Below, in pieces: positions 1,735 to 59,240 of a stretch of 64,000 nt of DNA. Position 1 is the stretch's first letter. Each line of letters starts with the position of its first letter. The stretch comes from Ectopseudomonas mendocina (GTDB lineage: Bacteria > Pseudomonadota > Gammaproteobacteria > Pseudomonadales > Pseudomonadaceae), in the NCBI RefSeq assembly GCF_007049795.1, contig NZ_SCFY01000002.1, forward strand, positions 62,001-126,000. Direction: 5' to 3'. The position numbers and the translations under genes are program-made. Below the pieces are notes generated by a model. The model had not been told where the DNA came from. It searched no databases and saw nothing but the letters and a program-made list of their open reading frames with translations.

Positions 1735-1881
1735 TCGAAGGTTTTAAGCACCAATCGAAATATGCCCAATAACTCAAATCCGGAATCAATTTAAAAACAG
1801 ACCTTTACAGCTGAAATATCGCACTAGACTTGAGAATGAGCGGCTAACCCCGCTCCCGGTGGGGCCTTTATCGAAGAGCCC

Positions 1882-2096
1882 AGACCGTTGAAAAACGTTA
1901 GCGAGGCAGGCAAGACAAGGCAAAAACAGCCGAGAAACGGTCGGAATCGCGCTCGATTTTACAAGCGTAAATGAGCATTTCGACTGGGCTCGCACACGAG
2001 GCTGTTTTTAACGCAGGATTGCCAACGCACGACTGCATGGATGCAGGAGGTAGAGCGACGCAGGAAGCCAAAGCCGAGATAGTTTTTCATCGGTCT
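1882..2096. repeat. MITE-like element with terminal inverted repeats, long form
   Basis: The left end, AGACCGTTGAAAAAC, is matched by the reverse complement of the right end, AGACCGATGAAAAAC (2082-2096), with one mismatch. Internal inner repeats (GGCAAAAACAG near 1919 and CTGTTTTTAACGC near 2002) would extend the hairpin. The block shares most of its first 150 bp with the element at 41881-42018, including GTAAATGAGCATTT, but carries about 70 extra bases before the right end. It has no coding capacity. No clear target-site duplication flanks it. It lies between two plus-strand genes. Confidence 0.7.
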
Positions 2097-2146
2097 GGAA
2101 ACAGCTGCCACGCGCCCGGCCCTACCGGCACCCTTGCGAGGATGCC

Positions 2147-41830: not shown

Positions 41831-42038
41831 CTGTGGGAGGCGCTTCAGCGGCGACGTCTTTATCGATGATCGCGGCTAAAAGGCCGTTGAAAAACGTAGG
41901 CGAGGCAGCCAGTGCAAGGCAAAAACAGGCGAAAAAGCGGAGTTTACGATCTGTAAATGAGCATTTTGAGCCTGTTTTTAACGCAGCAGTGGCAACGCAG
42001 GTAGTTTTTCAACAGCCTGCTAAAGCCCCTCCCACAAC
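41831..42038. repeat. REP palindrome interrupted by a MITE-like element
   Basis: A Pseudomonas REP-like repeat (GTGGGAGGCGCTTCAGCGGCGA, written in two parts here: left arm 41832-41856, right arm ATCGCGGCTAAA at 41869-41880) is broken by the element at 41881-42018. The rest of the right arm, GCCCCTCCCACAA, resumes at 42025. With the insert and one GCTAAA removed, the right arm reads CGCGGCTAAAGCCCCTCCCA, identical to the reverse complement of the REP at 58949-58970. Confidence 0.8.
41881..42018. mobile_element. MITE-like insertion, 138 bp, with 6-bp target duplication
   Basis: Terminal inverted repeats are AGGCCGTTGAAAAAC (41881-41895) and its partner GTTTTTCAACAGCCT at the right end (42004-42018, one mismatch in pairing). 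The element is flanked by identical GCTAAA copies at 41875-41880 and 42019-42024, as expected for a transposition event. An internal inverted repeat (GGCAAAAACAGGC near 41918 and GCCTGTTTTT near 41971) would make a long hairpin. It encodes nothing and must depend on an unknown transposase in trans. A 215-bp relative lies at 1882-2096. Confidence 0.75.
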
Positions 42039-43232: not shown

Positions 43233-43309
<77 letters not shown>

Positions 43310-43320
43310 CCTTCCGAAAA

Positions 43321-43345
43321 GGCCACTCTAGCGAGTGGCCTTTTT
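43321..43345 (+). terminator. Terminator of tRNA-fMet copy 1
   Basis: GGCCACTC and GAGTGGCC form a perfect 8-bp stem with loop TAGC, followed by TTTTT. Confidence 0.92.
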
Positions 43346-43390
43346 GTTTGCCTGGTCGATTAGTATTTTCGATCAAAAGCAAGAAACCGA

Positions 43391-43418
43391 TTGACAACAC
43401 TCCCTCCCTGAGTAGAAT
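43391..43418 (+). promoter_or_regulatory. Promoter of initiator tRNA copy 2
   Basis: TTGACA (43391-43396), 16-bp spacer, TAGAAT (43413-43418), a near-consensus sigma-70 promoter. Confidence 0.85.
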
Positions 43419-43424
43419 GGCCGC

Positions 43425-43501
<77 letters not shown>

Positions 43502-43512
43502 CCTTCCGAAAA

Positions 43513-43537
43513 GGCCACTCTAACGAGTGGCCTTTTT
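43513..43537 (+). terminator. Terminator of tRNA-fMet copy 2
   Basis: GGCCACTC (43513-43520), loop TAAC, GAGTGGCC (43525-43532), then TTTTT. It differs from copy 1 by one loop base. Confidence 0.92.
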
Positions 43538-43582
43538 GTTTGCCTGGTCGATTAGTATTTTCGATCAAAAGCAAGAAACCGA

Positions 43583-43610
43583 TTGACAACACTCTCTCCC
43601 TGAGTAAAAT
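43583..43610 (+). promoter_or_regulatory. Promoter of initiator tRNA copy 3
   Basis: TTGACA (43583-43588), 16-bp spacer, TAAAAT (43605-43610). The -10 box differs from copies 1 and 2 by one base. Confidence 0.83.
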
Positions 43611-43616
43611 GGCCGC

Positions 43617-43693
<77 letters not shown>

Positions 43694-58879: not shown

Positions 58880-59240
58880 GATAAAGCGTCGCCGCTGAAG
58901 CGCTTCCCACAGAACGGGGGGCAGCCTGTCAGTGCAGCAGCGAAACCTTGTGGGAGGGGCTTTAGCCGCGACAGCCCAGGAAGCTGAGCCCGGATGCAAT
59001 CCGGGAACATTGGTTGCGCAAAAGAGCATCGCGGCTGAAGCCGCTCCTACCTATCCCATAAAGGCGGCTTCTGATTCGTAGGGCGGGTGCAACCCGCCAC
59101 CCTTTTATGGCGGGTTGCACCCGCCCTACACATTACATATGCCCAACTGCCTCGTAGGAGCGGCTGGGCGGCGTTACGCTTCAGCAGCGAAGAATTTCCC
59201 GAAAATCCTGATCGCTGCGGTGCGCACGGCGCACCACGAC
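58880..59240. repeat. Repeat-rich spacer with REPs and a 22-bp perfect inverted repeat
   Basis: This 361-bp region holds no gene. A REP arm occurs at 58949-58973 and its inverted partner at 59027-59050, enclosing CCCGGATGCAATCCGGG (58989-59005), a separate short palindrome also found near 62812. A perfect 22-bp inverted repeat (59078-59099 and 59108-59129, starting GTAGGGCGGGTGCAAC) with an 8-base loop follows. Another REP arm (GTAGGAGCGGCTGGGCGGCG) starts at 59155. Such stacks mark DNA between Pseudomonas transcription units. Confidence 0.75.

Follow-up and report, generated by a model that had tools for sequence, protein, structure and literature searches.

One hairpin core under several kinds of transposon ends in a MITE family of Ectopseudomonas mendocina

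The usual definition of a MITE rests on its ends, since these are what the transposase reads and the middle is free to change. The IS5 family leaves a 4-bp YTAR target duplication, and TIMEs (Tn3-derived miniature elements) have Tn3-type ends of 38 bp and a 5-bp duplication. Archaeal MITEs linked to IS5 and IS1182 are tabulated in the excerpts seen of PMC3852290, and the inverted ends of the P. fluorescens R0 and R2 repeats equal those of resident IS elements (PMC2718517, in excerpt). According to the accessible part of a 2007 review, a repeat–transposase link has rarely been made for bacterial repeats (PMC2229807); some later links are listed in the same excerpts of PMC2718517 and PMC3852290. 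Here we describe a family whose copies have one core hairpin in common and vary in their transposon ends and in duplication length, a shared core with changing ends being the reverse of the usual MITE pattern. Its type-A members resemble the IS5-family MITEs of bacteria and archaea in being short, with IS5-type ends and a 4-bp duplication, and resemble TIMEs as non-autonomous Pseudomonas elements. They differ from IS5-family MITEs in that one core is common to the ends of different transposon groups, and from R0 and R2 in that these are reported, in the portion of PMC2718517 seen, as separate families with no core across end types. One core with exchangeable ends is not described in the parts seen of PMC2718517, PMC2229807, PMC10969869, PMC5896051 and PMC3852290, and no published description of the family was found in the open-licence literature, by topic or by sequence string.

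The window analysed here is a stretch of 64,000 nucleotides of E. mendocina, in which an initial annotation had read the block 41881-42018 as a MITE-like element inserted into a REP palindrome with a 6-bp target duplication. The block does lie between copies of GCTAAA, read directly at 41875-41880 and 42019-42024, and has 15-bp imperfect terminal inverted repeats (arms 41881-41895 and 42004-42018, 93% complementary). The block is a member of a MITE family, a non-autonomous transposon that is short, multicopy and has 16-bp ends, so that this part of the reading stands. The length of the duplication does not. When copies were lined up with their flanks, a terminal C...G was found outside the earlier 138 bp with a 4-bp duplication beyond it, and from 19 type-A copies and the empty sites of siblings we place a 140-bp type-A MITE at 41880..42019 (core orientation +), between target duplications CTAA at 41876..41879 and 42020..42023, both read from the sequence and without strand. 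The A at 41880 is thus its first base and the G at 42019 its last. As the terminal C/G is retained at 34 of 38 ends of the 19 copies, the first base of the window element has probably mutated from C. Exact 4-bp duplications are present in 8 of the 19, six of them CTAA, CTAG or TTAA and the other two TTAT and ATAG, while over 6 bp only the window copy matches (1/19). The 6-bp match is likely a coincidence, arising because the left C became A and chance REP bases extend it. The annotation had held that copies lacking 6-bp duplications would speak against it; such siblings overturn the duplication length only and leave the element a MITE.

Insertion into a REP arm was also confirmed. The partner arm of the pair interrupted by the MITE is found at 41832..41849 (no strand), in inverted repeat with 42019-42036 (89%); the matching REP copy that had been placed at 58949 is on the minus strand and starts at 58951. 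REP targeting was rejected as a habit of type A, since only 1 of 17 listed copies lies in a REP by a simple motif test, whose flag on L002 came from a chance match and in which L020 and L023 were assessed by their flanks. The window element was likewise rejected as a REP or REPIN itself, for it interrupts a REP and its siblings make target duplications. Its left terminal repeat, (C)AGGCCGTTGAAAAAC with A as the first base in this copy (41880..41895, +), is otherwise identical to the left end of an IS5-family element (L222/L225), and its right terminal repeat, CAGGCTGTTGAAAAAC (42004..42019, -), is one base off that end. Between them lies the conserved hairpin core with its stems (41908..42001, +), which covariance model R1 scores at 92.2 bits (E 2.5e-23 in the window), with 16.2 bits on the opposite strand.

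The window block is not a chance structure, because BLAST found the family, all end types counted, at 40 or more distinct places in its own genome (40 of 75 candidates having been scored) and because the block folds far below shuffles (z -5.0 as RNA, -5.6 and -5.5 for the two DNA strands). By covariance model the family has at least 68 places (150 candidates scored per genome); the genome searches scored a limited number of candidates, and copy and genome counts are therefore lower bounds. A second type-A copy in the window, at 1881..2097 (+, ends read), is degenerate and scores 30.7 bits with R1 at 1909-2032; it contains an inserted mini-hairpin and, towards the right end, some 50 additional bases, with no clear target duplication. 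Two 37-bp palindromes, L031 (G000:C6:127092-127128) and L033 (C17:16425-16461), consist of two type-A ends only and are apparently internal deletions of the whole hairpin. We note separately that three tandem tRNA-Met (CAT) genes, with starts 192 bp apart, lie at 43233-43693 of the window.

Ten sites predicted to be empty were tested in a second genome of the species (G453). Four were empty (L002, L006 and L019 of type A, L014 of type B), five were filled (L001, which is the window copy, L003, L005, L007 and L013) and L010 was ambiguous. The empty junctions were as predicted, with the 4-bp duplication for type A and 6 bp for L014; some bases near them differ, one of these lying in the L014 target. 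G453 carries the window copy unchanged, first base included, and the insertion therefore predates the split of these strains. It is absent from the syntenic place in genomes of four other species (G001, G008, G012 and G027; G028, with its match on the other strand, was left out of this comparison). The search for empty sites that had been suggested thus succeeded for siblings and not for the window site itself, where no base-level empty site was found, G453 being filled and the intergenic DNA of the four other species differing too much for one to be read.

An exact search for YTAR followed by the type-A end matched 4 of 59 genomes of the genus, the element's own among them. In one of another species (G012), six of the eight matches have a DDE transposase domain at a distance of 216 bp, and the coordinates give six places of a type-A-ended IS5-family element. 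The two copies that were read (L222 and L225) are a 1331-bp element with CAGGCCGTTGAAAAA at both ends, flanked by CTAG on both sides in both copies and without the core. With the NCBIfam IS5 model NF033581 its transposase scores 263.9 bits, above the cut-off of 140, and so the transposase with the same terminal repeats that the annotation had proposed to look for was found, in another species of the genus. The type-A MITE was presumably moved by an IS5-family transposase of this kind. As observed, this is a family with 4-bp duplications (mostly YTAR), empty sibling sites and the ends of a full IS5-family element.

Other end types also have partners. D-type ends occur on two elements of about 900 bp (L216 and L205), and the one tested, L216, passes the IS5_3 model, a subgroup that we take to be IS427. 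E-like ends occur on L208, L212, L220 and L214, and the two tested, L208 and L214, are IS1182-family transposases; L208, L212 and L220, with type-E ends in G012, sit in the middle of short palindromes. The four tested partner transposases carry PF01609 or DUF4096 domains. The core was found at none of eight examined loci of full elements with MITE-type ends. No pair of type-B ends 0.8-3 kb apart, as in a full IS, was seen by eye among the matches listed from 149 genomes, and there was no full element with type-C ends among the PF01609 loci examined. Partners were sought at 13 of 30 loci in eight non-Pseudomonas genomes, most of which had repeats, none of them matching a MITE end.

Within its own genome the same core is found under ends of type A (CAGGCYGTTGAAAAAC), type B (GGCACCTCTAAAAAC, with exact 6-bp duplications in 4 of 8 copies), type C (GAACCTGTTCACGA, with exact 3-bp duplications in 2 of 6), type D (GGGTCTGTACGAAAAG) and an E-like type (CAGACTGTGTGAAAACG). 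Between A and B, identity is 0.32-0.37 over the terminal 10 bp, 0.92-0.95 over the next 5 bp, 0.82-0.85 in the arms and 0.90 in the core; type C shares mainly the core with the others (0.87). These values come from a hand-picked set of 13 type-A, 6 type-B and 7 type-C copies, indel- and insert-bearing copies being left out. Within type-A elements, covariation of left with right ends was significant (p 0.004), and in the six type-B copies alone it was not (p 0.17). A genome of another family (G423) again has the core with two kinds of ends (L300 and L302). Extra mini-hairpins, for example TCGGACTCGCGCACGAG or CCGGGCTGGCGTTCCAG, recur directly after a loop GA, in Pseudomonas L020, L023 and L063 and in L301 of G423. 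Self-complementary mini-hairpins of the same motif follow the GA of core loops in different genera (L301, L020, L023, L156 and L075).

Structurally, the core forms a hairpin in which a G.T pair is retained, the loop is GSA/GA and the stems covary. The pattern GTTTACNNNNNGTAAATGAGCATT, with 19 fixed bases, is present in 35 of 369 genomes of the class (reversed control, 0) and in no fewer than 119 stretches from named genomes, its carriers including Pseudomonas, Halomonas, Nitrosomonadales, Desulfobacterales and Alistipes/Rikenellaceae MAGs. With the covariance model the core was found at E 1e-4 in at least 80 of 299 Pseudomonadota genomes, of which many belong to a single family in another class; this is a lower bound, 14 candidates per genome having been scored. 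The copy from a Pedobacter MAG looks proteobacterial and may be contamination. The core copies L070, L079, L105 and L148, the first three from Bacteroidota MAGs by title, have distinct arms and ends of their own, pointing to a separate branch and not to contamination. In an alignment of 46 of 80 distinct cores (150 places), picked by eye to be without large inserts (A1), 86.9% of cells are paired in the proposed structure, and stems have 250 double-change cells against 91 when shuffled and 63-108 when slid. AAGCG and A34, both outside the search pattern, are nearly invariant in these 46 diverse copies. The apical stem also covaries among covariance-model hits (CGTAC, TGTAC, TTTGC, CATAC and others), in which the basal G.T pair is retained in 31 of 38, GSA on the left in 32 of 38 and GA on the right in 37 of 38. 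The 38 were scored from 40 stretches, L457 being left out, L469 holding no copy and the mis-placed L448, L452 and L478 being counted as misses; the model was built from pattern-selected copies, so the selection of hits leans to the core. A second alignment (A2), fitted to R1, takes in two ERIC copies, the Cupriavidus copy and five reverse-strand hits. There are 51 G.T pairs against 25 A.C mismatches (p 0.004, a value weakened by sequence relatedness), and one strand is therefore probably the functional fold.

One of the known repeats compared with this core is ERIC, whose consensus had a 100% match in public records. ERIC is similarly a hairpin, of about 127 bp, and its apex, GGA-GCTTAC-N4-GTAAGT-GA, has the same G.T pair and GA loop, whereas its ends are others and its lower stem is different. 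The window copy was rejected as an ERIC, having other ends and CTAA in place of the TA that the excerpt of PMC2229807 gives for ERIC termini. In a targeted scan R1 gave 19.0 and 14.5 bits on two ERIC copies, not significant genome-wide. The score may be owed in large part to hairpin shape, because with default filters 1.6 Mb of other genome sequence gave R1 two hits of 17-21 bits, and the reverse strands of the family's own hairpins reached up to 18.4 bits. We regard the similarity, mainly of apical bases, as weak evidence for a link between ERIC and the family, and as a lead. An E. coli ERIC (L258:109-231) matches the Rfam Vibrio RNA AS5 at 40.2 bits, with a gathering score of 96, and the AS5 model may describe an ERIC-like repeat. 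The Correia/NEMIS repeats of Neisseria share with many family copies, by eye, ACAAGGC and AACGCCGTA at the foot of the hairpin; as an exact pair these were found after 0 of 296 ACAAGGC sites in 1.6 Mb, where the family copies also are without the pair. Correia and a Cupriavidus MITE differ from the window family in their apical core, CCGCAGACAGTAC. R1 had no hit on a Correia copy and gave 21.5 bits on a copy of the Cupriavidus MITE. We note that CCGCAGACAGTAC-loop-GTACGG is a second apical core common to MITEs with different ends (L261, Cupriavidus; L260, Neisseria).

Taken as a whole, we think it probable that the window element, a non-autonomous MITE with IS5-family ends, belongs to a family that persists by end exchange around a kept core. 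On binding the ends, an IS5-family transposase would have inserted the element at the CTAA of the REP arm, in a common ancestor of two or more strains of the species, and the family would then have persisted by changing its ends. As the hairpin is near-perfect, a new terminal sequence on one arm could be copied to the other, and with such copied ends the core could pass from one transposase to the next. A counterpoint is that the type-A partner is seen in another species and not in the own draft genome, where type-A ends were found at 0 of 9 PF01609 matches. Moreover, end exchange is deduced, and slow drift of the ends with related transposases would also fit, because the ends share a general form (CAGGCTGTTGAAAAAC, CAGGCTGTGTGAAAACG). 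This would make it an ordinary IS5-derived MITE family, in which the likeness of the core is ancestry, the ends have drifted with diverging transposases and the core is functionless, and the PF01609 or DUF4096 domains of the four tested partners agree with it. We nevertheless consider it unlikely, given that the ends read by the transposase are 0.20-0.37 identical between types and the supposedly free middle 0.87-0.90, and that loop bases persist across phyla while stems covary, in copy searches that favoured the core.

The excess of G.T over A.C gives the folded strand a polarity, weakened as evidence by relatedness, and the G.T pair is retained while adjacent pairs covary. These features would suit a core under selection in host transcripts as an RNA element, be it a terminator, an RNase site or a hairpin bound by protein, and there is a precedent in that ERIC RNA changes mRNA stability depending on orientation (PMC2229807, in excerpt). 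Such an origin of the constraint also appears improbable to us, for the core shows no preferred orientation where its flanking genes are co-directional (with them at 26 places, against them at 22; 48 of 86 placed, with crude GC-frame gene calls), and Rfam gave a best match far below gathering in the window region and no match at the copies in seven loci of the family. The conserved unpaired bases and the position inside a REP could recall a single-strand (HUH-type) mobile hairpin such as REP/REPIN, a reading that we give very little weight in view of the target duplications, the transposon-type terminal repeats and the even orientation of the core to replication, hence no leading or lagging strand bias (35:36 for 71 copies listed of 95 in four complete genomes, the GC skew of G003 being noisy). 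A host-level signal would usually show an orientation bias, and the best reading of its absence is that the module matters to the element itself. Returning to end exchange around a kept core, we tentatively suggest that the core could be a selfish module acting in cis, and not a control element of the host, which would be recognised during mobilisation when the element's own DNA folds as a single strand or into a cruciform; the core's function is deduced from these patterns. The element has no phage match, and 15 plasmid records match it, two of them over most of the query. More speculatively, and here we are doubtful, GCGSA-G-stem-loop-stem-T-GAGC could be a selfish structured module spread via the ends of different transposon families through Pseudomonadota and Bacteroidota, its folded single strand read by a widely conserved factor, with ERIC and perhaps Correia as offshoots.

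A constrained middle combined with changing ends suggests a second recognition step. Several of the end types gain named transposase partners from this work. Should the apex be shared by ERIC, it would become possible to test where this repeat, in use for typing for decades, came from.
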